Assembly (NCBI RefSeq): GCF_000427095.1
Contig: NC_021487.1
Location: 1,689,949-1,753,948 of the forward strand
Origin: Chthonomonas calidirosea T49
GTDB lineage: Bacteria; Armatimonadota; Chthonomonadetes; Chthonomonadales; Chthonomonadaceae
DNA length: 64,000 bases
Reading direction: 5' to 3'
Position numbers and translations under genes: made by a program. Below, one piece after another: positions 8,313 through 23,004 of this stretch (within the stretch, counting starts at the first letter, position 1; each line of letters starts with the position of its first letter). The notes under the pieces are model-generated. The model searched no databases and was not told where the DNA came from. It saw nothing but the letters and a program-made list of their open reading frames with translations.

Positions 8313-8483
8313 ATCCCTTGTTTCGCTTTCTACATCTCATCGTGCACCCCATTTTTGTTGTTATGTTCTCTCTTTACCAGCTTTTCTCCTGCACTCCTCA
8401 AGCTTCCACCGCCATCACCCCGGCCCTTGAATCTTTTTGCTAAAATAGGAGACAAAATTCTACTATATGGAGGACGAATAACG

Positions 8484-9245
8484 ATGGCTCGCTCGTTGCA
8501 CAACCGGTTTGAAGGAGCGTTCGACCGTGCGCTTCAACCGCTCTATCGCCCCCTCTGCCGCTATGCAGCCAGGCGCGTCGGCACACAAGACGCGGAAGAC
8601 GTTGTCCAAGAAGCGCTTCTCGCCGCTTGGAATGCGCGGGACGACCGCGACGTCATTCCACCCCCCTCCGAATTCCTTGCTTGGCTTCGCCGGTTTGTGG
8701 ACTACGCCTGTGCCAGTTACCTTCGACGGCGCTTTCTCCATCCCGTCGAAACGCTCACGGAAGCGCAAGAACAGACCATCGAGCAGCGTCCGGCCCCTCC
8801 ACCCCTTACCGAACTGCTTCTCCGCTATCGTCAAGAGCTTTATCGCCTCCTTCAGACGGTGCCCCTCACCCAACGCCAACACTTTTGCCTCAGCGCTTGG
8901 CTTAACGGTCAAAGCCAGTTCCAGATCGCCGCTACCCTTCGGGTTGACCCCAAAACCGTGTGGGAGCACCTCGATGCCGCCACGCGCAAACTTAGCCGTG
9001 CGGCAAAAACGGAACAGATCGCCATCCTCGAAGTCTACTATGCCGAGGTTCACCGCCCCATCTACCAAGCCCCTGAAACCGTGGGCGCACGCCTCGCACG
9101 CGAAAAACTCGCCGCTTATACCCCCCATTCCTCCCCTAAAGCCTCACGCCCTACCGCAAAAGCCAAGCCCTCTTCCTCTACGAAAAGGCAGGACTCGGTT
9201 CAGCAGACGAAGAATATTCCGTCCAAACGAGCATCAAGGAGGTAG
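8484..9245 (+). CDS. ECF-like sigma-70 factor with basic C-terminal tail
   Basis: A 253-residue sigma factor. Region 2 lies near residues 14-90 with YAARRVGTQDAEDVVQEALL; region 4 lies near 130-172 with LTQRQHFCLSAWLNGQSQFQ and a helix-turn-helix. After region 4 comes a tail of about 60 residues rich in Ser, Lys, Pro and Ala, unusual for ECF factors. The start at 8484 has TGGAGGA ten bases upstream; the longer frame from 8286 is rejected. The stop is followed after two bases by the ATG of the MDR dehydrogenase, so they are one transcript. No anti-sigma factor is adjacent. Whether it controls its own operon is not visible. Confidence 0.85.
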   Translation: MARSLHNRFEGAFDRALQPLYRPLCRYAARRVGTQDAEDVVQEALLAAWNARDDRDVIPPPSEFLAWLRRFVDYACASYLRRRFLHPVETLTEAQEQTIEQRPAPPPLTELLLRYRQELYRLLQTVPLTQRQHFCLSAWLNGQSQFQIAATLRVDPKTVWEHLDAATRKLSRAAKTEQIAILEVYYAEVHRPIYQAPETVGARLAREKLAAYTPHSSPKASRPTAKAKPSSSTKRQDSVQQTKNIPSKRASRR

Positions 9246-9247
9246 CG

Positions 9248-10285
9248 ATGCCCAAAGAGATTGTTACGAAAACCGGTGAAGCCTTTTGGTTCCGCGAGTA
9301 CACCCTTCCCCCCCTTCAAAACGACGAGGTGCGCATTCAGGTTACTTTCGCCGCCCCTAAACACGGAACTGAACTAAAGGCGATCACCGGCAGCGTTTTT
9401 GACCGCAAGCGGTGGGACAAAACGCTGCGCATCTTCCTACCGAAAGAGGAACCTACTTCGCCGCCCACCGAACGCACTATCGGTAATATGGTGGTGGGAA
9501 CGGTTATCGAGGTGGGAGCCAACGTCGAACGGTGGAAGGTTGGCGACCAGGTGTTCGGATACGGCCCCGTACGCGAAATCCATCAGGCCAAAGAAACCCA
9601 TTGGCATGCCCTCGGTACCCTCAGCCCAAGCGATGCCGTCTGCACCGATCCGGCGCATGTAGCCTTCGTGGCCGTGCGCGACGGTAACATCCGCGTCGGC
9701 GACGATGTGGCTATCTTCGGTTTAGGGGCCATCGGCCAGATGGCCGTACAGGTAGCCAGAGTTGCCGGAGCACATGCCGTTTTTGGCGTAGATCCCCTCG
9801 CCATTCGGCGAGACTGCGCCGAGCTTTATGGCGCTAAGGCCACCTTCGACCCCACCGTCTGCGACGTGGGCTTGGCGATTAAACAGGCCACAAACGGTTG
9901 CGGTGTCGATGTCTCTGTGGAAACCTCTGGCAGCGCCTCAGCCCTTCACGAGGCCATCCGCTGCCTCCGCCAATGTGGAACCGTTGTGCATGTGCCCTGG
10001 GGCCCTCAGAACGCGACCGACCTCCACCTCGACGAAGAGTTTCACCTCAATCGTCCAACTATCGTTGGCAGCCAAGCTTGGGAGGGTTGGGGCAACCCCG
10101 ATCGCTCTTACCCTCTGTGGACTCCGCAACGCGCTTTTGAAACCACGATAGAGCTATTTCGCCGAAAACTCCTCTCCGGTGCAGGCGTCGTAAACCCCAT
10201 TCTCTCCTTTGCCGATGCTCCTTCTACCTTGGCCGAACTCTTTCACCACCCGGAACAGACGATCAAAGTCGGCATTCAATTTTGA
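9248..10285 (+). CDS. MDR-family (alcohol dehydrogenase-like) oxidoreductase, zinc ligands missing
   Basis: A 345-residue medium-chain dehydrogenase/reductase. The Rossmann NAD(P) site is VAIFGLGAIGQMAVQVARVAG near residues 154-173 (read with its core GLGAIG). Where classical alcohol dehydrogenases have a zinc-ligand Cys and GHE motif, this one has PKHGTELK near 37-44 and IGNMVVGTV near 78-86, so the catalytic zinc site seems absent. It is closer in style to BchC-like or quinone-reductase-like members. SAGGAGGTAGCG-type spacing to the upstream sigma stop shows coupling. The substrate is unknown. A sugar or polyol role is possible in this saccharolytic context but is only a guess. Confidence 0.8.
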   Translation: MPKEIVTKTGEAFWFREYTLPPLQNDEVRIQVTFAAPKHGTELKAITGSVFDRKRWDKTLRIFLPKEEPTSPPTERTIGNMVVGTVIEVGANVERWKVGDQVFGYGPVREIHQAKETHWHALGTLSPSDAVCTDPAHVAFVAVRDGNIRVGDDVAIFGLGAIGQMAVQVARVAGAHAVFGVDPLAIRRDCAELYGAKATFDPTVCDVGLAIKQATNGCGVDVSVETSGSASALHEAIRCLRQCGTVVHVPWGPQNATDLHLDEEFHLNRPTIVGSQAWEGWGNPDRSYPLWTPQRAFETTIELFRRKLLSGAGVVNPILSFADAPSTLAELFHHPEQTIKVGIQF

Positions 10286-10436: not shown

Positions 10437-11378
10437 TTAATCCATTGGGTCTACCACAAAGATCACATGAAAGCGATCCAGAAAGCCATCGCGCGCGTTC
10501 AGCCTTGCCAGACGCTCCGCGTCGGCCTGACTTAGCACCACGTCGGCGTGGACCGGCGAGTTCGATCCACCGATCGCCCGAAGAATTAGCGGATGGGAAC
10601 CCGCCTCCGGCAGCTGACGTGCCTGCGCGATGCTATGGGCATAAACCACAATGCCGTGCTCGATAACGAAGTTGGGGTCTGCATAGACCGTTCCCCAGAC
10701 CTCCGTGCCGTCGGCGGCGTAGATTTTCGGCGACATATCTCGCTGCACCCGATAGCCTCGTGCATCAATAATAACGGATGTATAGGGTGTGCTATCTTCG
10801 TCAACTTGCGGCCGAACACTCGGCAACGGGGTACTAGGAGCGGGCACCGCCTCTGTTCCCAGAGTCCCCCTATCGCCGTTATCGGATGTCCCCTCACGCT
10901 GGGGCACCAAAGCTGAACGAAAAGCTTCCGCTACGCTCCCGTTGCCGTAGAGGGGCGCCGCCATGGTCACCTCTACCATGGAATCGCGTCCCTCACGAAT
11001 ACGCCGTTCCGAAATGAAACGAGGGTGATGTAGCAGCCCCTCCACCTCTGCGCGAATGGTGGCATCACGCGCCATATACTCCTGGCCGGTGGTCACGGCG
11101 TCTATGTGCACGTGATGGATGGCCATCAGCAGGTTACGCATGGCGTCAAGGATGGCGTAGTCGCGCGCCTTGAGATAGGCCACGGCATCGTTGGAGACGT
11201 TATTGGGAATCGCTCCGAGCCCAATGGCGTAGATGGTGTTCTCCGTCCAGTCTATGGAGCCATGCGGCCCCACACGTTCGATATCGTCATCGGCGCGCCG
11301 TGAGGCGGCGTAAAGACCCACCGGCACCACGAGCAGGCCGGCGAGCAAAATAGAGAGCAGACAACGTCCTCTTTGCAT
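10437..11378 (-). CDS. LPP20/FlgP-like exported protein
   Basis: A 313-residue exported protein with signal peptide (residues 1-25, cut after YAASR or near it). The core (about 40-150), with ARDYAILDAMRNLLMAIHHV and then a glycine- and charge-rich region, resembles LPP20/FlgP outer-membrane proteins. A Pro/Ser linker (about 170-195) leads to a C-terminal domain beginning TSVIIDARGYRVQRDMSPKI, which is clearly paralogous to the C-terminus of the FlgO-like protein at 12600-14021 (LLVDARNMPVQRDMSLRI). It is third in a minus-strand operon. Its start has AAAGGAGTG upstream but lies 92 bases inside the previous frame, which is suspicious for an indel there. Location is probably the outer membrane or periplasm. 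Confidence 0.7.
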   Translation of the reverse strand: MQRGRCLLSILLAGLLVVPVGLYAASRRADDDIERVGPHGSIDWTENTIYAIGLGAIPNNVSNDAVAYLKARDYAILDAMRNLLMAIHHVHIDAVTTGQEYMARDATIRAEVEGLLHHPRFISERRIREGRDSMVEVTMAAPLYGNGSVAEAFRSALVPQREGTSDNGDRGTLGTEAVPAPSTPLPSVRPQVDEDSTPYTSVIIDARGYRVQRDMSPKIYAADGTEVWGTVYADPNFVIEHGIVVYAHSIAQARQLPEAGSHPLILRAIGGSNSPVHADVVLSQADAERLARLNARDGFLDRFHVIFVVDPMD

Positions 11379-12591
11379 GAAAAGACACTCCTTTCCTTAA
11401 AGAATAAGGCCCCCGAACTGCCGAAGAGGGCGCCTCGCGCGGGACCTGATAGACGAGAGACGCCCCCTGCATAGACACAAGTTTTAACGGAAGCCCCGGA
11501 ATCTGGCCGAGGCGCAACGCCACATCCTGAGTAGCTAAACATGACCGAAAGATAATATCGTAGCTGCCTGCTTGATGCTGCCGCCGAAGGATATCGCAGA
11601 ACCCACGCATGCCCTCTAGGGCCTCGCACAGTCGGCTCTCCTTAGCCCCAGCCAACCCGATGACGCGCAGCGCTACCGGATGGCCGTCCATGCGTTCTTT
11701 AGCCCAGCGCGCCGGTATCTCCTGGGTAAACAGCGTACGGCTCTGTTGCATCAACGTATCCACCGCGTTCTGAGCGGCCTGCTCGGCCGCCAGAGCATCG
11801 CTTTGAAAACTAACCCCCTTCGCTTCCGCCTGAGCCACAAACAGCGTCTCCAGGCTCCAAGGAGAGACGGCTTCAAGGGTCAGATGCGCCTGATAGACGG
11901 CCACCACATCGCCTACATGATAGGGGCTTTGCGCATCGCCAAGCCGCACGGCCGGAACGAGCTGCAATTGGCCCCGCAACACGATATCGGCCGGCAAAGT
12001 CTCCGCCAAATCGTAGCCGGCCGACCGCAGGCGCAGCTCCAGCTCTTGCTGAGCCACTTGGGCACAATCCGGCGCTGTCGGGCAGGCGATCTTCACCAAG
12101 AGACGGGGGTTGCCAAGGTCGTTGTAGGCATCGCGAATATCGCCAAGCGATTGAATGGTGGAAAGCTTTGCCACATCGGCCTCGATCTGCAGACAGAGGA
12201 GGCGTCCGTTCGGGCCAGGAGCGATCGACTCCACATGCACCGATTCAGGAACCAGACGCCACGAACGGATGAAACCTGCCGTTTGATTCTCCACCTCGTC
12301 ATGCAGAGTGCGATAGTTCTCCCCGAAAGTACGCGCCCGAATGAAGACCCCCGTTGCCATCTCCACCGCATTGCGCTTGGCGTCCCAAATGGCCTCCTCC
12401 TCGGCGGCAGCTCCATCTATCCCTAAAGGTGCCATTCCGGATGCGATGACATGTACAAGGCCGACGTCCTCCTTGGTGGTGGACAGAGAAGACGCCGGTT
12501 TTGAAGCGCCCGGAGCCGGAACCGTTGCGGGCGCTGTCTCTCCTTGAAGCCATAAGTGCATACCGACGAAAATCGGAAATAGACAGAGCAT
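11287..12591 (-). CDS. FlgT-like envelope protein (3' end possibly frameshifted)
   Basis: A 434-residue exported protein. The N-terminal signal is weakly defined (MLCLFPIFVGMHLWLQG). VIASGMAPLGIDGAAAEEEA starts a FlgT N-terminal-like domain (about 48-140) with NYRTLHDEVENQTAGFIRSW. It is followed by a domain with LGNPRLLVKIACPTAPD and a third domain near 300-400. FlgT belongs to the H-ring of Vibrio flagella; the domain also occurs outside flagella. The last 30 residues are Arg-rich and overlap the next gene by 92 bases. Removing one base from the C5 run at 11410-11414 would end the frame around 11398, just before the next ribosome site, so the tail is doubtful. Confidence 0.65.
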   Translation of the reverse strand: MLCLFPIFVGMHLWLQGETAPATVPAPGASKPASSLSTTKEDVGLVHVIASGMAPLGIDGAAAEEEAIWDAKRNAVEMATGVFIRARTFGENYRTLHDEVENQTAGFIRSWRLVPESVHVESIAPGPNGRLLCLQIEADVAKLSTIQSLGDIRDAYNDLGNPRLLVKIACPTAPDCAQVAQQELELRLRSAGYDLAETLPADIVLRGQLQLVPAVRLGDAQSPYHVGDVVAVYQAHLTLEAVSPWSLETLFVAQAEAKGVSFQSDALAAEQAAQNAVDTLMQQSRTLFTQEIPARWAKERMDGHPVALRVIGLAGAKESRLCEALEGMRGFCDILRRQHQAGSYDIIFRSCLATQDVALRLGQIPGLPLKLVSMQGASLVYQVPREAPSSAVRGPYSLRKGVSFHAKRTLSALYFARRPARGAGGSLRRLTARR

Positions 12592-12599
12592 AGGCCCTT

Positions 12600-14021
12600 C
12601 TACCTATCGGCATCCACAAGGATGCAGACGTTCCAGTTCCATAGGAAGTGATCGCGCCGATCCTCGGCCAAAATACGATCGGCATCGGTGCGAGAGATAA
12701 TAATGTCATCCCCCTGTACCCGCAGTGCAACCACCCGCATGGGGTGCACGCCGGCGCGACGCGTTTCGGCCGATGTGTGGGCGTAAGAGGCCGTCCCCTC
12801 CACATCCACAAAATCGGGGTCGGGCATGTGTTCGGGCGGAGGATAGACCAGTCGCCCATCCTCATCCAAAATGCGCAAGCTCATGTCCCGTTGCACCGGC
12901 ATATTGCGTGCGTCTACCAACAAGCCGGTGTATTGGGGAGATGCCGTCTCGGCAGAAGCTCTCAAAGCCGAAGAAGGTACGGTGGCAGCCACAATAGGTT
13001 CCGAATCCGCCTCTGAAGGAGCTCCTGGTGCCCGCGACACAATCGTCCTCACAAAAAGCCACGTGGCCGGGTCTTGCGGGCGCAACGGCTCGCTCGGCAT
13101 CCAAAGCCCTTGTGCCAGCGCCGTATTCACGTAAGGGCGTGCCCAATAGGGGATTGCGCCCCCATCCACAAGCTGAGCGACCTCACGCCCCATGTCCGAT
13201 ATCTGGTCAGGAGGAATAAGGGCGCGCACGACGGCAACAAGCGTGCGAAGACGCGAAACCGCAGCGTTCGGATGAGTCATCGTAAAAGACACTTTCCCAA
13301 AGCGCTGCAGATAGCGCACCAGCTCCCCCTCGGTCACCACCTGATCATCGGGAGGCTGCGCCACTGCAGAGGAGGGAGACGGCTGAGACGATGGCGAACT
13401 GAGAGATCCCTGCGCGATCGCTGTGTCCGATCCGATAGCAGGAGAATCGGATATGGTGCGTAGCTGTAAAGAACGATTCTCCGCGTCGGAGTCGAGCTGC
13501 AGATCTTTCCCCGTAAGGCGCAGGTGTAAAAGACGAGCCAAACGGTTCACGAGCCCCAAAATATCGTCTGCAGGGCCGGCCACGTTAGCGGCTCCGCCCG
13601 GGCTAACGCGCCCCGTGTCCACGTTGAGCAGGCGCACGTTCAAAATGAGGCGATTGCCCACCTGCAGGTAGCTGCCGACGATAAGATGGTTTGCTCCAAC
13701 AAGTCGCCCAACCTTTTGAACTTGCGGCTCGGTCAGCCCGGTCGCCTGCAGTTTTAACTCCGTTAACACACGGCTTATCTCGTCCCGCTCCACCATGTGC
13801 AGAATGGGGGATTGGGCCAGATCGGTCAGTAGCGTATCGGCCAAGAAGCGGCCGAAATCCTTGTCTTTTCCGGAAAAGTCGGCTACGGCAATAATGAGTT
13901 CGGACGCATCGGCGCGAGGGGTTGGCGCCACCGTATTAGGAGGGCTCGCGAGGGCGACCGCGAAAAGCCCGCAAAGCAGCGCCAAGCCGATGCCGCAAGG
14001 GAAGATAGGCCACCGTGGCAT
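12600..14021 (-). CDS. FlgO/CsgG-like exported protein with C-terminal domain shared with the LPP20-like protein
   Basis: A 473-residue exported protein. A signal peptide (about 1-26) precedes IAVADFSGKDKDFGRFLADT and LGANHLIVGSYLQ-type sequence (here VGANHLIVGSYLQVGNRLIL), typical of FlgO/CsgG domains (about 38-140). A Pro/Ser linker follows. A segment near 280-330 with IPYWARPYVNTALAQGLW resembles an S-layer-homology repeat. The C-terminus (about 375-473) is paralogous to that of the third gene. ATG at 14021 with AAAGGAGAATCC upstream is preferred over 14063. It is first in a three-gene minus operon. In Vibrio, FlgO, FlgP and FlgT sit at the outer membrane; here no other flagellar gene is seen. 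Confidence 0.72.
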   Translation of the reverse strand: MPRWPIFPCGIGLALLCGLFAVALASPPNTVAPTPRADASELIIAVADFSGKDKDFGRFLADTLLTDLAQSPILHMVERDEISRVLTELKLQATGLTEPQVQKVGRLVGANHLIVGSYLQVGNRLILNVRLLNVDTGRVSPGGAANVAGPADDILGLVNRLARLLHLRLTGKDLQLDSDAENRSLQLRTISDSPAIGSDTAIAQGSLSSPSSQPSPSSAVAQPPDDQVVTEGELVRYLQRFGKVSFTMTHPNAAVSRLRTLVAVVRALIPPDQISDMGREVAQLVDGGAIPYWARPYVNTALAQGLWMPSEPLRPQDPATWLFVRTIVSRAPGAPSEADSEPIVAATVPSSALRASAETASPQYTGLLVDARNMPVQRDMSLRILDEDGRLVYPPPEHMPDPDFVDVEGTASYAHTSAETRRAGVHPMRVVALRVQGDDIIISRTDADRILAEDRRDHFLWNWNVCILVDADR

Positions 14022-14564
14022 GCTGGATTCTCCTTTCTGAAAGCGCTCTTGGAGCGCAAGCATCTTGCTTGCACGAAAGTAACCAGAGAAAGCGCTCTAG
14101 AGCCCGCCTTCACTGTGAACTTTTAGGATTCTGCGCTTGGCCGTCCTTGTTCTATCTGAAACGAACAGCGGTCAAGCAAGTGACACGACGCATCGAAATT
14201 TTCGGCTAGTGCGCACCAGGCGCACTACAAAGTATCCTGGCGTTCAGCACGCAAGCAGATTCATTCGAATTTTAGTCTCTTCCTATGCGCTATTATATCT
14301 CCTTTTCAACAAAACATCATGTGCTATTTTGCAAAATTCAATGCGAACGACCTGTTTATAAGCAGGAATCGAGGGGCCGATCCCCGAATGTATTTGTGTG
14401 CTTCGTGTGCAGCCGTGGATGCAAAACCGTCATGCCCTAAGGAAAGGGGTCTTATCGTCAACAAAAGGCCAGGTTCTGGGCAATATCTTTTCTGCATCCT
14501 AATTCTCCACCCGCGCCCCCGTGACGTGGCCGTAGAAGTAGTAAAGAAAGCGAGGTGCAGTAGG
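14022..14564. other. Long intergenic region between the FlgO-like gene and a receiver gene
   Basis: About 540 bases between divergent genes. On the minus strand TATAAT (14292-14297) could be a -10 element for the FlgO-like operon, but no good -35 is visible and the leader would be about 270 bases. On the plus strand open frames here lack ribosome sites and read as noise. I see no RNA gene or clear repeat. Confidence 0.4.
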
Positions 14565-15013: not shown

Positions 15014-15043
15014 TTGACAGTTTATGCCTCCTTCGCGAATAAT
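15014..15043 (+). promoter_or_regulatory. Possible promoter giving a leaderless PBP1A message
   Basis: TTGACA (15014-15019) and AATAAT (15038-15043) are 18 bases apart. Transcription would begin about seven bases later, at the ATG at 15050. No ribosome site precedes that ATG, which fits a leaderless message but does not prove it. Confidence 0.4.
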
Positions 15044-15049
15044 GTCTGT

Positions 15050-17515
15050 ATGACTAAGCGTGCAGCAAAAGCCGCTTCGGGGCAGACAAAAGGTAGTTTA
15101 CGCGTCTCCTCTGCCATGCGGCGCAGCCCAAGGGGGCGCATTAAAAACCTTCTGGCTCTTCTCTTCCTTATGGGGGAGCTCGTTGTTGCCGCACTGCTCA
15201 TCGTGGGGCTCGCGATCTTCTATCGCTTTTCAAGTGACCTACCCAACGTTAATCTGTTGTCCAGCCAATCCCTCATCCCCGCCGCCACCTCCATCTGGTC
15301 GGAAGATGGTGTACTCCTAGGCACCCTGCAACAGATCAACCGTAAACCGGTTCCCCTTAACGAGATCTCCCCCTTTCTGAAAGATGCTACTATCGCCATT
15401 GAAGACCATCGCTTCTATCATCATTTCGGTATAGATATCAAGGGCATCTTGCGCGCCGCCTACATTGACCTTACCGGAGGTAACCCCACCCGTGAAGGCG
15501 CCAGTACCCTGACCCAACAGCTCGTGCGCAATGTCGGCATCTTCGGCCTTAACCACCAAAAAAGCTATGCGCGCAAAATTCGTGAAGCCCTCATCGCAAT
15601 GCGCGTCGAACAGCTCTATAGCAAAGATGAAATTCTCGATCTCTACCTCAATAACGTCTACTACGGAGCCGGCGCCTATGGAGTCGAAGCCGCTGCACGC
15701 ACCTATTTTGGGAAGTCGGCTGCCGATCTCGATCTCTCTCAAGCCGCTCTGCTCGCCGGTCTGCCTCAACTCCCCTCTGCCTACTCGCCCTTCTCACATC
15801 CTGACCGCGCCATCGAACGGAGAGATGAGGTGCTCGACGCTATGCTCCGTTACGGCTACATCAACCGCGCTCAGTACGAAGCCGCAAAATCGGAGCAGCT
15901 CCATTTTGCGACACCTCCCCGCACGCGCAAGGGCTATAACTTCAAAGCACCCTATTTTGTCTGGTATGTTCTTAACGACCTCATCCGCCGATATGGCCTC
16001 GACTTCGTGGAATCGGGACTTAAAATTCAAACTACCCTTAACTGGAAGATGCAACAGGCGGCCGAAAAAGCGTTGGAGCAAGGGCTTGAGCGCGCCAGCT
16101 ATACCGGTGCCAACCAGGGCTGTCTCGTCTGCCTCGATAACAGCAATGGAGCTATTCGCGCCATGGTAGGAGGCCGTAGTTTTCTGGCTAGCCAATTCAA
16201 CATCGTCACCCAAGGACTCCGCCAGCCCGGCTCCACGTTCAAACTGTTCGACTACGCCGCCGCCTTCGATACCGGCAAAGCAGACCTTAATACTACTTTT
16301 CGCGATGAACCCATCGTCTATCCCAACAGCCATAAGCTTGTTCACGACTTCGAAAACTATACGGGCCGCAGTATGACCTGCAAAGAGGCCATTGCCCGCT
16401 CGGTAAATACCATTGCCGTGCAGGTGGCCGAGCTCGTGGGCATAAAAACGGTCATCGCCTACGCCCACCGCATGGGCATTACCACCCCTATCGCCCCCTA
16501 CTATCCCTCTGCCATCGGTGCCTCCGCCGTCCATCCTCTCGATCTTTGTGTGGCCTACTCGGTGGTCGCCAACAACGGCATTCTGCGCAAACCGATGGCC
16601 TTACTGCGTGTAACCGATGCGGAAGGGAACATTGTAGAAGAACATTTCCCTCAAGAACAGGACGGGCTCCTGCGCAAATCCACCATCGATCAACTTAATG
16701 AAGCCTTTGAGGCGGTGGTAACCGAAGGAACGGGTGTGGCCGCTCGCGGCGATGATAGCAACGGCATCGTGCCCAATGCCCATGGGAAAACGGGCACCAC
16801 CTCTGATTTCCGCGATGCCTGGTTCGCTGGCTACACGCCGGAGCTAACAACCGTTATCTGGTGCGGTAGAGTGCACCATGGGCGCTATCTGCCCATGAGT
16901 AACGGCCAAGGCGGTGTTGTGTGTGCCCCCATCTGGCACGACTTCATGATCAAAGCCGTGCCCATCGAGCAAAAATATCTTGCAGCGCTTAACCCCGCTC
17001 CGCCAGCTCCACAACCTAAACCCGCGTCCCCCAAACCGGCCCCCCAAACCCAACCGGCTCAGCTTCAGCAGCCCTCCACCCCTTCGAACAACTCCACATC
17101 GTCGGCCTCTCCCACCACCGCCGCCCCAACTCCGAGCGCGCCTTCATCCCCTCTGCCTTCTAACTCCCAGTCCGGCGGAACTTCGCTTAACAATACAGGT
17201 AGTCCGATACCTCCAACGCCCACAAATCCGTCTACCCCCAATTCAAACGATCTCCTCCCCTCCCCTCAAAACGTGTCTACACCCCCTGCGACCAACGCAC
17301 CCACCCCATCTCACTTGGCTCCCAACCACATCGCCGCGCCCCCCACACCGCCCAAACATAAGTCCGACCCCATGGTAACCGTCACCATTTGTGTCGACTC
17401 GCATGAAAAGGCCACTATCTGGTGTCCCGCAACCATTACCGTGCAGATGCCGGCCTCCCAGGCCCGCAAACTTAAAACCTGCCCCCTTCATAAACCACCT
17501 CCTGGCGCTGGCTGA
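15050..17515 (+). CDS. Penicillin-binding protein 1A (transglycosylase and transpeptidase)
   Basis: An 821-residue class A PBP that polymerises and cross-links peptidoglycan at the cytoplasmic membrane. A basic N-terminus leads to one membrane helix (about 35-58). The GT51 domain has EDHRFYHHFG near 118 and EGASTLTQQLVRN near 155. The transpeptidase has the catalytic Ser in PGSTFK near 394, SVNT near 450 and HGKTGTTSDF near 579. From about 640 to 780 the protein is almost only Pro, Ser, Thr, Asn and Ala, a cell-wall-spanning or disordered tail, ending in a short Cys-containing domain with VTVTICVDSHEKATIWCP. A TTG start at 15014 is possible, but 15050 gives a normal N-terminus. Confidence 0.93.
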   Translation: MTKRAAKAASGQTKGSLRVSSAMRRSPRGRIKNLLALLFLMGELVVAALLIVGLAIFYRFSSDLPNVNLLSSQSLIPAATSIWSEDGVLLGTLQQINRKPVPLNEISPFLKDATIAIEDHRFYHHFGIDIKGILRAAYIDLTGGNPTREGASTLTQQLVRNVGIFGLNHQKSYARKIREALIAMRVEQLYSKDEILDLYLNNVYYGAGAYGVEAAARTYFGKSAADLDLSQAALLAGLPQLPSAYSPFSHPDRAIERRDEVLDAMLRYGYINRAQYEAAKSEQLHFATPPRTRKGYNFKAPYFVWYVLNDLIRRYGLDFVESGLKIQTTLNWKMQQAAEKALEQGLERASYTGANQGCLVCLDNSNGAIRAMVGGRSFLASQFNIVTQGLRQPGSTFKLFDYAAAFDTGKADLNTTFRDEPIVYPNSHKLVHDFENYTGRSMTCKEAIARSVNTIAVQVAELVGIKTVIAYAHRMGITTPIAPYYPSAIGASAVHPLDLCVAYSVVANNGILRKPMALLRVTDAEGNIVEEHFPQEQDGLLRKSTIDQLNEAFEAVVTEGTGVAARGDDSNGIVPNAHGKTGTTSDFRDAWFAGYTPELTTVIWCGRVHHGRYLPMSNGQGGVVCAPIWHDFMIKAVPIEQKYLAALNPAPPAPQPKPASPKPAPQTQPAQLQQPSTPSNNSTSSASPTTAAPTPSAPSSPLPSNSQSGGTSLNNTGSPIPPTPTNPSTPNSNDLLPSPQNVSTPPATNAPTPSHLAPNHIAAPPTPPKHKSDPMVTVTICVDSHEKATIWCPATITVQMPASQARKLKTCPLHKPPPGAG

Positions 17516-17731: not shown

Positions 17732-17968
17732 TTGAACCTGAAAGAAAAATCGGTTTCGCCCGTAGTTGCCGCCATCATTATCCTCGTTATCATTGTCATT
17801 GCCGGAGCGCTGATCTATCGCTATTCCGGTCCACCAGCCCACTCTGGGATGACCCCTGAAATGGCGCAGCAACTCAAAAAGATGTTCGGCAATGGGGCTC
17901 CTGGTTCTGGCGGTGGCGCACAAAATCCCTACGCTGGCCACCAACCGGCGGGAGCACCGCAACACTAA
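17732..17968 (+). CDS. Small membrane protein paired with a DUF1559 prepilin (copy 1)
   Basis: A 78-residue protein. After a short charged start ([12 protein letters not shown]) one strongly hydrophobic helix spans about residues 10-32. The rest is Gly/Pro/Gln-rich with [13 protein letters not shown]. The start is TTG with GGAGGTGAGGAGAA just upstream. It resembles the protein at 23005-23217: same size, same SP-V-A-I-hydrophobic-YRY pattern and a Gln-rich tail. Each lies next to a DUF1559 prepilin gene. It is too short for a pilin and lacks a prepilin cleavage motif. I infer an accessory membrane subunit for prepilin handling; no family is recognised. Confidence 0.75.
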
Positions 17969-17974
17969 CCACTT

Positions 17975-17994
17975 ACTGCCTTATCGCAGGCAGT
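17975..17994 (+). terminator. Hairpin between small membrane protein and prepilin genes
   Basis: ACTGCCT (17975-17981) pairs with AGGCAGT (17988-17994), followed by CTTTTTC. It sits inside the two-gene unit, so it probably attenuates transcription into the prepilin gene or stabilises the upstream message. Confidence 0.6.
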
Positions 17995-18038
17995 CTTTTT
18001 CATCACAAAATAACACTAAAAAAACAGGAGGATTCGTT

Positions 18039-18863
18039 ATGAGATCTCGCGGTTTTACATTGATTGAGCTGCTTGTAGTTATCGCCATTATAGCGATTCT
18101 TGCAGCTATCCTGTTCCCCGTGTTCGCACAGGCACGCGAACAGGCCCGTACCAGTATGTGCCTCTCAAACATCAAACAGCTTAGCCTTGGCGCCCAGATG
18201 TACACGCAGGACTACGACGAGCGCTTTCCTTCATGGAACTGGCCTTTCTTCTGCAATGGAGGAAATAACGGCGCTCCTCGCGACTCCGCCGCTTTCTGGA
18301 CGATGGCGATCTACCCCTATGTGAAGAACACCGGGGTCTACCAATGCCCCGACGATGCCCTTCGATGGAACGACGCCTGGGCAACCTGCAGCGATGATGG
18401 TGGTAAGGACGATATGTTCGCCCCCATTAACCCAGCAACCGGGAAAGCCTGCAACTTTTGGGATGGCTGTAACCCGAAATATGTCTCCTACGCAATTGAC
18501 GAATCGCTCGATGGAGGCTGGCCAACCAATACGCTAGCCGGCGTGCCTACTCCTGCCAACTGGGCGCTCTTCGCCGACTGCGGCTCGCAACTGGCCGACA
18601 TATGGGTGTGGCAACAGCCCAATGCGCAAAATGCCAACAACATCTCGGCTCGCATCGCTTTCTCCAATCAAGGATGCTGTCTTATTTGGCAGGGGAGCCA
18701 ACCGGCTTCCTATTTCCTCTCAAAGTATAGCCAGTCGTTCCTCGACAACCTCACCCGCCATCATGGGGGCGAGAACGTGAGCTTCGTGGATGGACATGCG
18801 AAATACATGCGATGGACGAATCTCACCTGGGTTAATCTAACGACCGGCACGCTGCCACAGTAA
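18039..18863 (+). CDS. DUF1559-type prepilin (copy 1)
   Basis: A 274-residue type IV prepilin-like protein. The leader MRSRG is followed by [20 protein letters not shown], the cleavage site and hydrophobic helix; processing would occur after Gly5. [20 protein letters not shown] then leads to the DUF1559 globular domain with Cys-rich loops. The C-terminal signature [14 protein letters not shown] (His-x9-Asp-Gly type) is near residue 250. ATG 18039 has ACAGGAGGA upstream. These proteins are abundant in Planctomycetota and Armatimonadota and are thought to form pseudopilus-like structures; what they secrete is unknown. Paralogue: 23343-24197. Confidence 0.9.
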
Positions 18864-18926: not shown

Positions 18927-20246
18927 TCATTTCTTAGGCGTCGCTGTTGTTGGTAACGACCATTCCGTTATAGGGCGACCGGCTCGGTGTAGGGCGTTCT
19001 TTAGTTCTGCCATGGCAACCCTATTATGAGGATCGAGCCGACACACTTCGCTAAACTCAATGATGGCACGAGGCAAGTTACCTGTTTTAAGGTAGAACTG
19101 AGCTAATTTAAGATGGATCGGCACCGAATGCGCGTTATTCAGAAGCTGCATACTTAATGCTTGGCCAACAGCAGCTTGATGACGAGCCTGCAGGCTTTTG
19201 CGGATAAGCGCCAAACCGGCCGCTCGTTGTCCCAACGCGACATAGGCTCGCCCAAGCAGCAGACCCACATTCTCCAAATTCGGTGCGCGCTCATAAACGG
19301 GTTGCCAGGCCTGAACCGCGCCCTTCAGATCCCCCTTGGTTTGCAGCGCTTTTCCCTTCTCAAAAAGCGCTTCTAAGTTATACGGCTCCTGATGAAGCAC
19401 CGCATCCGTATCTTGCAGCGCCCTATCTGGTTGCCCCAAGGTGTTGTAAAGCTTCGCGCGTTGCACCAATAGGGGATCGGGATTCGAGGCATGCGCGATC
19501 GCTTCGTTAAGTGCTGTAAGCGCCTTACTCGGCTTATCGGAAAGGGAGTAGACCTCGGCTAGCGAGCCGAGTACGGTAGGGTCGGTTGGAGCGAGTTGGC
19601 GTGCAAACAACAGCTCTTTTTCGGCTTTGATAAGGCTTAGCGATTGGGAGTAGGCGATAGCGAGAGCCACATGCAGTTGTGCCACGTTAGAATGTGCTTT
19701 TAAAGCATGTTTTAGCAGAGAGATGGCGTCCTGATTCCATCCTAGCTTCAGATAGAGCCAGCTAAGCCCAAGGATCGCTTGAAGATTGTTGGGGTCAAGC
19801 GCCAGAGCACGCTCGTATTCGAGCAGGGCCATATCCTCTTTCCTATCTTTCGTTAGGCAGTCGGCATAAGCAGCATGAAGGCCGGCGTTTCGTGAGTCTA
19901 ACTGCACGGCTAACTGCCATTGTGTATCGGCTTCGGCAAAGCGGTTCTGTTGTTGTAAGAGGTCGGCATAGAACGCATGCGTTTTTGGATCGTTGGGGCG
20001 GAGGTTTACGGCCAGCGCTGCCTGCTGCAGGGTTTCGGTTGCTCTTTGGTGCGCCACCTGCATCGCTTGCCACTGTTTTTCTTGTCGTTGCAACTGGGCG
20101 ATCTGCTGCCGAATGCGTATCTGCCAAGGCAGCGTGATAAGGCCTCCAAAAGCCACTAAGACAAGTAGAATCAGTAGAAGCCGTAGACGCTTTTTGTCGG
20201 GTGCACTCTTCATAGATTTTGAAGGATCTTCTCTAGAAACTGACAT
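18927..20246 (-). CDS. Membrane-anchored TPR protein (paralogue A)
   Basis: A 439-residue protein. A basic N-terminus and one membrane helix (about residues 20-42, LRLLLILLVLVAFGGLITL) are followed by a coiled stretch and then about nine TPR-like units to the end (for example ALALDPNNLQAILGLSWLYL). It is a close paralogue of the next gene upstream, 20319-21635, with the same anchor and repeat order, so it arose by tandem duplication. ATG 20246 is chosen because AGGAAAG lies just before it; a TTG at 20276 is possible. It is the last gene of the five-gene prepilin operon. TPR proteins usually scaffold assemblies; here probably pseudopilus or secretion parts (inference). Confidence 0.75.
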   Translation of the reverse strand: MSVSREDPSKSMKSAPDKKRLRLLLILLVLVAFGGLITLPWQIRIRQQIAQLQRQEKQWQAMQVAHQRATETLQQAALAVNLRPNDPKTHAFYADLLQQQNRFAEADTQWQLAVQLDSRNAGLHAAYADCLTKDRKEDMALLEYERALALDPNNLQAILGLSWLYLKLGWNQDAISLLKHALKAHSNVAQLHVALAIAYSQSLSLIKAEKELLFARQLAPTDPTVLGSLAEVYSLSDKPSKALTALNEAIAHASNPDPLLVQRAKLYNTLGQPDRALQDTDAVLHQEPYNLEALFEKGKALQTKGDLKGAVQAWQPVYERAPNLENVGLLLGRAYVALGQRAAGLALIRKSLQARHQAAVGQALSMQLLNNAHSVPIHLKLAQFYLKTGNLPRAIIEFSEVCRLDPHNRVAMAELKNALHRAGRPITEWSLPTTATPKK

Positions 20247-20318
20247 CTTTCCTGCTAGGGAATGAGGAGGAGCCAAAAAGCAGTTTTAGCATGAGAAGCG
20301 TAGCTCGGCAGAGACACT

Positions 20319-21635
20319 TTAATGGCTTGGAGTTGTTGCTAAAGACAGCTCCGTTAAGGGGCGGCCAGCCTTTTGGAGGGCTATCTTTAGCCCCTCTCTT
20401 CCGGCAGCATTGTGGGGGTCGAGCTGACAAACCGCTCGAAACTCGATGATGGCGCGAGGCAGATTGCCGATGCGAAGATAGTATTGCGCCAAACGGAGAT
20501 GGAGAGGCACAGAATTGGGTGCGTTCATAATCTGGCGGCCTAAAGATTGCCACTCGTCAGCATCGCGCATCCTTTGCAAACTTTCTTGAACTAACTCCCT
20601 ACCAGCAGCCCGCCTACCTAATGCGATGAGAGCGCGCCCTAACAATAACCCTACGTTGTCCATGTCTGGTGCGCTATCGTAGACGAGCTGCCAAGCGCGT
20701 ATCGCACCCCGCAAATCCCCCTTAAACTGCAGCGCTCTCCCTTTCTGGAAGAGCGCCTCTAAATTATGCGGGTCTTGGCGTAACACCGTTTCCGCATCCA
20801 GCAGAGCCTTATCCGGTTGGCCAATGGTATTGTAGATTTTAGCGCGCTCTAAAAGAAGCGGGGTTGGATCGGACACCTGTGCAATGGCCTGATCGAGGGT
20901 TACAAGAGCTTTTTGGGGGTTGTTGGCAGTCCAATAGACCTCCGCCAATGGGCCAAAAATGGAAGGGTCGTGCGGATCGAGCTGTTGCGCCTTTAACAGC
21001 TCTCTTTCCGCCTCGCTCAAGCGAGTCAACTGAAAATAGGCCATCGCGAGCGTTTCATGTAGTTTGGAGGAATCCCCATGGGCCTTCAATTGACGCTTCA
21101 ACAGCGCCAATGCATTTTGGTTCCATCCGAGCGTGATGTAGCGGAGCGCCAACCCAAGGGCTGCGCGCAAGTTGTTGGGGTCGAGACGCAGGGCGCGTTC
21201 ATACTCGAGCATGGCCACATCCTCTTTCCCGTTTCCATCCAGACAAGCAGCGTAGGCCACGTGCAGGTTGGTGTCTTTAGGGTCAAGCAGCACCGCCTTT
21301 TGCCACTGCTCTTCGGCCTCTGAAAAGCGGCCCTGCTGCTCCAGTAAAGCGGCGTAGCGAGCGTGGGCTGCAGGGTCGTTCGGATGTAGCTGTACCTCCT
21401 GCGCTGCCTGTTGAAGGGCTAAATTCATCTGCTCCTGAGCGCGCTGCAGCGCCTGCCGTTGCAACTCTTGTTGGTGCAAAAGCGCGAGATGGCGGCGAAT
21501 GCGAATCTGCCACGGGAGGCTTACAATGCCCAATAGAATGACAAATGCCAATAGCCCCAATAAGAATCGGAGTCTTTTCTGCTCTACTATCCTTTTGTGT
21601 TCCTCTGTTTCCACTCTAATCTTCGATCGTTTCAC
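20319..21635 (-). CDS. Membrane-anchored TPR protein (paralogue B)
   Basis: A 438-residue protein with a basic N-terminus (MKRSKIRVETEEHKRIVEQK), a membrane helix near 24-44 and about nine TPR-like units. LPWQIRIRRHLALLHQQELQ, right after the anchor, is nearly the same as in paralogue A. The start is GTG at 21633-21635 with GAGGATAG upstream, four bases after the stop of the TPR lipoprotein gene, so translation is coupled. Sequence between duplicates has diverged evenly, which suggests both copies are kept under selection. No catalytic motif is visible. Confidence 0.78.
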   Translation of the reverse strand: MKRSKIRVETEEHKRIVEQKRLRFLLGLLAFVILLGIVSLPWQIRIRRHLALLHQQELQRQALQRAQEQMNLALQQAAQEVQLHPNDPAAHARYAALLEQQGRFSEAEEQWQKAVLLDPKDTNLHVAYAACLDGNGKEDVAMLEYERALRLDPNNLRAALGLALRYITLGWNQNALALLKRQLKAHGDSSKLHETLAMAYFQLTRLSEAERELLKAQQLDPHDPSIFGPLAEVYWTANNPQKALVTLDQAIAQVSDPTPLLLERAKIYNTIGQPDKALLDAETVLRQDPHNLEALFQKGRALQFKGDLRGAIRAWQLVYDSAPDMDNVGLLLGRALIALGRRAAGRELVQESLQRMRDADEWQSLGRQIMNAPNSVPLHLRLAQYYLRIGNLPRAIIEFRAVCQLDPHNAAGREGLKIALQKAGRPLTELSLATTPSH

Positions 21636-21639
21636 CTAT

Positions 21640-22956
21640 CTATCCTCCCCGCAAAGCGATCTGATGCGCCTCCGTGCGCCTTCCCATGGCCAGCAGTGCC
21701 CCTTTCAGTCCCTCAAGGGCTCTCTTATCGCTTGGGCGCAAGCGCAAAGCCTCTTTGTATTCTACAACCGCATCGTTGTAGATGCCGAGCCGCATGTACC
21801 ACTTCGCCATCCGCAGATGCGACACGGGATCGGCAAAATGGCTATTGACAAGATCACGTGCAGTCCCGTAGCTTATCGAGTTATTCTTGATGGTCTCATA
21901 GAAGTGAATCAACTTCGTCCCTCCCGCCCTATCGCCCTCACGCACCTTCAAACGTCCTAACTGAAAAGCCACATCCTCGAACGCTGGATTCGTCTGGTAG
22001 GACTGTTGAAAAGCCGTTAAGGCATCCTGCGTTTGTCCCATCAATAGATAGGCTTTCCCCTCACGATAGTAGGCCTCAGCCACAAGATCAGAGCGCTTCT
22101 GGGCTAAGACGGTTTGAAGGGCATTTTTCGACAGCGCAAGCGCCTCCGGAAAAGATTTCGGGTCTCCAATGCGCTCTAAGGTGTAGGCCAAGAGTAATTG
22201 AAGACGTGCGCTCGTTGGGCTGTGCTGAAGGGCAACACGAATGGTCTGTTCTGCTTCGGGAAGCTGTTCCGCAGCGGTAAGATAGGAAGTTAGGTAAAAA
22301 GCGATGTCCTCATCTTGAGGATGCTGAGCGAACAGATGTTGCAGAATTCGAATAGCCTTTTGGGTATGACCGGTTTCAAAAAGGTAACGTGCCTCCAAAA
22401 AAGAGACATTGGGATTATGGGGCGTCAGCCTCTTGACGGTTTGCAGAATCGGTGGAATCAACTCAAGCCAATGAAGCTCTAGGTAGATTTCCATCAGCCG
22501 GAGATAAACATTGGGGTCTTTAGCCTTTAAGCTCACGAGGTGACGTAATGCCTCTATCTCCAGGTCGGTATATCCGGCATCCTGATAGAGCCTAGCGAGC
22601 AAAACGAAAGGCGCCTGTGCATGAGGAGCTACGCGGGCGGCCTTGAGAAGTGCACGAACTCCCTCAGCAACTTTCCCTACTGCGAGCGCCATCTCTCCAT
22701 AACGCATAAGCGCCGTGGGGTCTTTAGGGTGTTGCTGTAGCTGCTGGTAGGCCTTGTGGAAGTCTTGTAGCGTCGGTGGAGCAGGAGCTTCAGGGGTACG
22801 AACCGGCAGAGGGGGTTTAAAAGTTTGGAGCTCCTTTGACGAAATACGTGCTACCTCTGGAGAAGATGCATGTTTAGAGGAGAGGCCGATAGGAGTGCAT
22901 CCTGAGGAAAATAGAGCGGGAAGAGTGATGATTAACACTCCCATCGGCTTCTTCAT
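21640..22956 (-). CDS. TPR lipoprotein
   Basis: A 438-residue lipoprotein. The signal MKKPMGVLIITLPALFSSGC ends in a lipobox with the lipidated Cys at residue 20. TPR-like units fill the rest (about 55-430), e.g. ALMRYGEMALAVGKVAEGVR and DALTAFQQSYQTNPAFEDVA. TTG and ATG codons at 22989 and 22983 extend the frame, but the lipoprotein signal starts best at 22956. It lies 48 bases downstream of the small membrane protein and 4 bases before the next TPR gene. A pilotin-like or outer-membrane scaffold role resembling PilF/PilW is possible by analogy only. Confidence 0.75.
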   Translation of the reverse strand: MKKPMGVLIITLPALFSSGCTPIGLSSKHASSPEVARISSKELQTFKPPLPVRTPEAPAPPTLQDFHKAYQQLQQHPKDPTALMRYGEMALAVGKVAEGVRALLKAARVAPHAQAPFVLLARLYQDAGYTDLEIEALRHLVSLKAKDPNVYLRLMEIYLELHWLELIPPILQTVKRLTPHNPNVSFLEARYLFETGHTQKAIRILQHLFAQHPQDEDIAFYLTSYLTAAEQLPEAEQTIRVALQHSPTSARLQLLLAYTLERIGDPKSFPEALALSKNALQTVLAQKRSDLVAEAYYREGKAYLLMGQTQDALTAFQQSYQTNPAFEDVAFQLGRLKVREGDRAGGTKLIHFYETIKNNSISYGTARDLVNSHFADPVSHLRMAKWYMRLGIYNDAVVEYKEALRLRPSDKRALEGLKGALLAMGRRTEAHQIALRGG

Positions 22957-23004
22957 AATAGAGTGCCTTAGACGGATCGGCATGCTCAAGTCAAACGCGA
23001 AGAG

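Follow-up and report, generated by a model that had tools for sequence, protein, structure and literature searches.

Outer-membrane rings around the bacterial flagellum include the H-ring of Vibrio, which consists of FlgO, FlgP and FlgT, and the FlgP basal disk of Campylobacter. Vibrio FlgO and FlgP carry a lipobox. Most descriptions of H-ring components concern Gammaproteobacteria, and most of those of FlgP disks concern Campylobacterota; in the epsilon-proteobacteria FlgT homologues were not found (PMC5758724). Here, we report the analysis of 64,000 nucleotides of the genome of Chthonomonas calidirosea T49 (Armatimonadota; contig NC_021487.1, positions 1,689,949 to 1,753,948), hereafter called the window and numbered from its first letter, in which three consecutive open reading frames (ORFs) on the minus strand encode, in 5' to 3' order, an FlgO-like (P3), an FlgT-like (P2) and an FlgP-like (P1) protein. 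A preliminary description, made from the letters of the sequence, had proposed that these three exported proteins resemble the Vibrio set, and this has been borne out by profiles, by the sequences of solved structures and by fold searches. The operon is real, conserved, H-ring-like and of a new architecture, and we lean towards the view that its products form an H-ring- or basal-disk-like ring around the LP-ring of the flagellum of this bacterium. Our literature search, for which subscription papers were outside reach, found no description of such rings in Armatimonadota.

Three exported proteins and their domains

The features of the locus, all on the minus strand, are the following.

12600..14021, minus strand: P3, FlgO/CsgG-like protein of 473 aa from the ATG at 14021, made up in order of a signal peptide, the FlgO/CsgG/TolB-N fold, a region resembling the S-layer-homology (SLH) domain and the shared C-terminal domain (ORF; ribosome-binding site (RBS) by eye; Pfam CsgG and FlgO; model and fold search)
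13569..13895, minus strand: FlgO/CsgG/LpoB-like domain of P3 (profile matches of relatives; fold search)
13020..13361, minus strand: degenerate SLH region of P3 (SLH matches of relatives; alignment; helices in the model)
12612..12935, minus strand: shared C-terminal domain of P3, domain D2 of Tp0624 (profile match and Foldseek match to 5jir)
11287..12591, minus strand: P2, FlgT-like protein of 434 aa (ORF; FlgT_N in relatives; AlphaFold2 (AF2) model; Foldseek)
12166..12462, minus strand: FlgT_N-like SHS2 domain of P2, whose helix is followed by a two-strand insert (alignment; secondary structure of the model)
10437..11378, minus strand: P1, FlgP/LPP20-like protein of 313 aa with the shared C-terminal domain (ORF; RBS; profiles)
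10941..11267, minus strand: FlgP/LPP20 (SHS2) domain of P1 (profile match to FlgP 9hmf_C)
10449..10787, minus strand: shared C-terminal domain of P1, domain D2 of Tp0624 (profile match to 5jir_B)

Strong Shine-Dalgarno sequences precede P3, whose start was taken as the ATG after AGAAAGGAG (the mechanical ORF begins at 14063), and P1, whose RBS AAGGAAAGGAG lies at 11398-11388. By eye, P3 and P1 have clear hydrophobic N-terminal export signals, and the N-terminus of P2 is short and hydrophobic. A scan of the operon for sigma-70 promoters and terminators gave no signal above shuffled sequences.

The domain that P1 and P3 have in common was noticed in the preliminary description, where it was said to start with 'DARxxxVQRDMS' and could not be assigned. 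The two copies are 36.8% identical (E 2e-16), and an assignment can now be given: the second half of the P1 profile matches Tp0624 of Treponema pallidum (5jir_B, 2e-15) over chain residues 134-264, and the C-terminal domain of P3 finds 5jir both by profile (2.6e-7) and as its best Foldseek match, with 29-31% identity. By sequence and by fold, the domain is D2 of Tp0624, which spans Y198-C317 of that protein and forms part of a tandem unit that, by its description, had not been characterised before (PMC5104382).

P3 taken alone matches the Pfam family CsgG over the cut-off (4.6e-8), and scores higher with this model than with that of FlgO (PF17680), for which it reached 22.2 bits in hmmscan, where the cut-off is 22.6, and 24.5 bits, over the cut-off, in the genome search. 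In an alignment of 13 relatives of P3, CsgG was found in all 13, FlgO in 11, LpoB in 10 (best 8.2e-10) and SLH in 7 (best 1.7e-7), the region corresponding to SLH being degenerate in P3 of the window, which itself gave no match. The fold matches obtained with Foldseek for the N-terminal domain of the P3 model are TolB, CsgG, PelC and LpoB; the model has a pLDDT of 76 and a pTM of 0.35, so that its placement of domains is unreliable. Judged by its sequence, P3 is a FlgO homologue.

P2 and P1, as single sequences, had no Pfam or NCBIfam match, and alignments of their relatives were therefore used; the searches with FlgO, FlgT_N and LPP20 that the preliminary description had recommended thus gave FlgO at the cut-off for P3, and FlgT_N and LPP20 among relatives, while P2 and P1 singly stayed silent. 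FlgT_N was found in 6 of 15 aligned relatives of P2 (best 1.9e-7). The AlphaFold model of P2 (pLDDT 78) has FlgT as its two best Foldseek matches among solved structures, namely 8z5n_0, from the structure of the LPHT-ring (6.6e-8), and 3w1e, the crystal structure of FlgT (7.9e-8), over about 390-400 columns. Despite this near full-length alignment the TM-scores are low (0.24-0.29), as if the domains of modelled P2 and of FlgT were differently oriented. P2 is a FlgT homologue. In the case of P1, 6 of 20 relatives matched LPP20 and 5 matched FlgT_N, and the first half of the family profile matches solved FlgP (9hmf_C, 4.6e-16; also 9yfg, 9yec, 9yds and 8z5n), without gaps across the hairpin insert of FlgP, which correlates with ring formation in that family (PMC12222027). 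By its family profile P1 is a FlgP homologue, with the SHS2/LPP20 fold and the hairpin insert.

As a separate observation, P2 and P1 overlap out of frame by 92 bases (11287-11378). The relatives of P2 stop about 45 residues sooner, and the extra tail of P2 is predicted to be disordered in the AF2 model, so that this lineage may have lost P2's stop codon.

Flagellar genes of the genome and distribution of the operon

The absence of flagellar genes nearby, already stated in the preliminary description, was confirmed for the whole window: comparison of its ORFs with a flagellar protein set gave no flagellar gene, bar one chance match (E 0.002). The genome is a single contig of 3.44 Mb with the operon at 1.70 Mb, and it encodes FlhA, FlgH, FliG and flagellin, together with FlgF-G-A-H-I-K-L, FliK, FlgD, FlgE, MotA/B, FliL, FlgB, FlgC and FliF-G-H-I, some of these names having been assigned from resemblance to other proteins of flagella or from reading of the sequence rather than from a profile. 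The genes lie in at least four places, from 1.46 to 2.49 Mb, 0.24-0.8 Mb from the operon. A flagellum with L- and P-rings (FlgH, FlgI) is therefore encoded by the same genome and, the set being scattered, it is unsurprising that an accessory operon should be unlinked to it. A complete flagellar cluster in the genome was what the preliminary description had named as decisive against its proposal of another machine; the gene set is indeed present, but it is scattered and does not form one cluster.

Two flagellin-like genes may be mentioned here. One (G000:C1:1458401-1459667; locus L187, about 8402-9616) has an N-terminal region split over two frames and adjoins apparent FliD and FliS genes; another, in a single frame, is found at 2.19 Mb.

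Relatives of P1 occur in 75 and relatives of P2 in 68 of the 291 Armatimonadota genomes. In this and the following comparisons flagellar calls rest on marker genes, and none of the tests is fully corrected for phylogeny. The full architecture, that is, FlgO with SLH and the C-terminal domain (CTD), FlgT, and FlgP with CTD, was found in 18 Armatimonadota genomes from 8 genera, all of them with FlhA, some of the 18 being counted on adjacent matches and not on a fully annotated locus. In a tree of 76 FlgP-CTD proteins, P1 falls in a supported group of 25, made up of 22 proteins from flagellated genomes and 3 from the single genome G237. Moreover, in three genomes of the genus g132 relatives of P1 are found at the end of a flagellar cluster, a few kb away from fliA, and in Halanaerobium saccharolyticum a divergent trio of FlgT_N, LPP20 with CTD, and FlgO stands directly before the flagellin gene. 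Each of these two cases ties the family to flagella independently of the other. Among named genomes of other phyla that carry the FlgP-CTD fusion, FlhA is present in 27 of 33; this figure has no control group and was not used as proof. Co-occurrence with FlhA of all relatives of P1 was also considered as proof of flagellar function and rejected, having missed significance in two phyla. Clustering of the neighbourhoods revealed no partner gene recurring across lineages, the one exception being, within a single family, a block that includes an ABC transporter.

Other arrangements of the same genes were also seen. In one genome of 88% completeness (G212, locus L058, 1291-4859), which is without FlhA, FlgH and FliG, three genes of the FlgP-CTD type stand in tandem. 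Several Desulfobacteraceae-type genomes (L159, L160, L161, L162, L163, L168) have a recurrent FlgP-CTD neighbourhood with no match to flagellar genes, often with a 164-aa gene before FlgP-CTD and, following it on the opposite strand, one of 283 aa.

Around the operon in the window, a class A penicillin-binding protein (PBP) with a long C-terminal tail rich in proline, serine and threonine is encoded at 15014-17515, divergently from the operon and with a response-regulator ORF in between. About 4 kb from the trio there is a prepilin gene (17892-18863), one of 58 prepilin motifs across the 3.44 Mb (about one per 59 kb), and at 18927-22989, on the minus strand, three successive TPR-repeat proteins of about 440-450 aa are encoded, the first two of which resemble tandem paralogues.

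What the proposed ring may serve

Since the same genome encodes a flagellum, this is the structure that a ring made by the trio would most likely serve. By way of its SHS2 fold and hairpin, P1 would oligomerise into an outer-membrane ring, which P2 would connect to the L- and P-rings of the flagellum. P3 would complete the ring, possibly tethering it to the cell wall by the SLH-like region; contacts among subunits or with the wall may be made by the D2 domains that P1 and P3 carry. The assembly would surround the LP-ring and buttress the motor. A number of results weigh against such a flagellar role. The operon stands apart from flagellar genes in nearly all genomes, this one included; a scan for a sigma-28 promoter upstream of it gave nothing convincing; and inspection by eye of P1 and P3 showed a lipobox cysteine in neither, which sets them apart from the outer-membrane lipoproteins FlgO and FlgP of Vibrio. 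Over the wider FlgP-CTD family the association with flagella is weak: flagellated genomes make up 59 of the 75 P1-positive Armatimonadota and 153 of the 216 others (p 0.12), and the all-flagellated result for the full architecture, counted by genus (8/8), has a p of about 0.06. FlhA and FliG are both absent from 16 of the 75 P1-positive genomes. In the Desulfobacteria, the class around a Desulfobacteraceae genome that was taken as control, the fusion occurs in 109 of 162 flagellated against 74 of 129 FlhA-negative genomes (p 0.088). Finally, two genomes without FlhA, FlgH and FliG keep such genes: G015 (95% completeness) has an operon of FlgP-CTD, FlgT-like and FlgO-like genes, and G237 (91%) has FlgP-CTD with FlgT-like genes. 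Trio-like operons were also found in G016 and at L139, the genome of the latter being without FlhA. The FlgO/FlgT/FlgP-like set can, in other words, exist without a flagellum.

It is from these genomes that the chief alternative takes its strength, according to which the trio forms a flagellum-independent ring or scaffold of the outer membrane and peptidoglycan that has kept an original envelope-stabilising role, or a ring role of its own, the FlgO/FlgT/FlgP fold set being an older envelope module that the flagella of some lineages recruited. We regard this as possible, with the odds against it: the operons of G015, G016 and L139, the FlhA-negative Desulfobacteria and the 16 Armatimonadota genomes speak in its favour, as do the SLH-like region, the presence of D2 in an envelope protein of Treponema and the several paralogous loci per genome, whereas the architecture of the window was seen only in flagellated genomes (18/18), the tree group of P1 is nearly all flagellated, relatives adjoin flagellar genes in two phyla and the assemblies of several non-flagellated genomes are incomplete. 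The idea of the preliminary description that another machine is served survives to the extent that related operons occur in genomes without a flagellum; its premise fell with the flagellum of this genome. The machine it had named, the prepilin system nearby, is very improbable as a user of the ring. Secretins are present and the prepilin gene is close, but with 58 such motifs in the genome a neighbour of this kind is unremarkable, no neighbour of the trio is conserved across lineages, and the trio is rare, whereas 197 of 200 Armatimonadota genomes have secretins, so that co-occurrence lends no support and a link between trio and pili by phylogenetic profile is impossible to draw. Still less credible is a reading in which P3 would be an LpoB-like activator of the divergent class A PBP and the operon would belong to peptidoglycan synthesis. 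The LpoB matches in ten of the 13 P3 relatives (best 8.2e-10), the LpoB structures among the fold matches and the closeness of the PBP1A gene would fit it; TolB, CsgG and PelC, however, match equally well, which makes the fold unspecific, and P1 and P2 would have no role. A link of the trio to the neighbouring PBP1A was discarded, this adjacency being absent in the relatives examined.

A ring around the flagellar LP-ring thus stays our preferred account of the operon in this flagellated genome, which is the ordinary side of the matter; the interesting side is that genomes encoding no flagellum have the same parts. The occurrence of full FlgO-FlgT-FlgP operons in Armatimonadota, in Halanaerobium and in genomes of deltaproteobacteria, together with the treponemal domain, suggests that such rings go back much further and are spread much more widely than the examples studied so far, and outer-membrane rings may predate their flagellar role. 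We put forward, tentatively and with more doubt than confidence, that FlgO/FlgT/FlgP constitute an old flagellum-independent outer-membrane ring module, widespread in diderms including non-flagellated ones, often joined to the D2 domain of Tp0624, and co-opted on several occasions as H-ring or basal disk; if so, the operon of C. calidirosea would belong to it irrespective of any service to the flagellum. The origin of flagellar outer-membrane disks can be tested directly in the non-flagellated genomes that have kept the set.

Comparison with described rings and related proteins

With the H-ring of Vibrio the locus has in common the same three protein types, here in one operon, the model of P2 matching FlgT best and the family of P1 matching FlgP, and C. 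calidirosea has the genes for a flagellum with L- and P-rings. Unlike in the Vibrio H-ring, P1 and P3 have no lipobox, both carry D2, P3 has in addition the region resembling SLH, and no flagellar gene is linked to the operon. As to the basal disk of Campylobacter, the N-terminal domain family of P1 aligns with C. jejuni FlgP, ungapped over the ring-forming hairpin (PMC12222027), whereas the solved FlgP has 171 residues and is without the D2 domain found in P1. CsgG, LpoB, the N-terminal domain of TolB and PelC share a fold with the N-terminal domain of P3; they serve curli export, PBP activation, Tol and Pel, respectively, and no conserved partner gene of those systems stands beside the trio. 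In Treponema pallidum, finally, the domain common to the C-termini of P1 and P3 is the D2 of Tp0624, placed there between D1 and an OmpA-like domain, whereas in P1 and P3 its fusion partners are FlgP- and FlgO-like domains.

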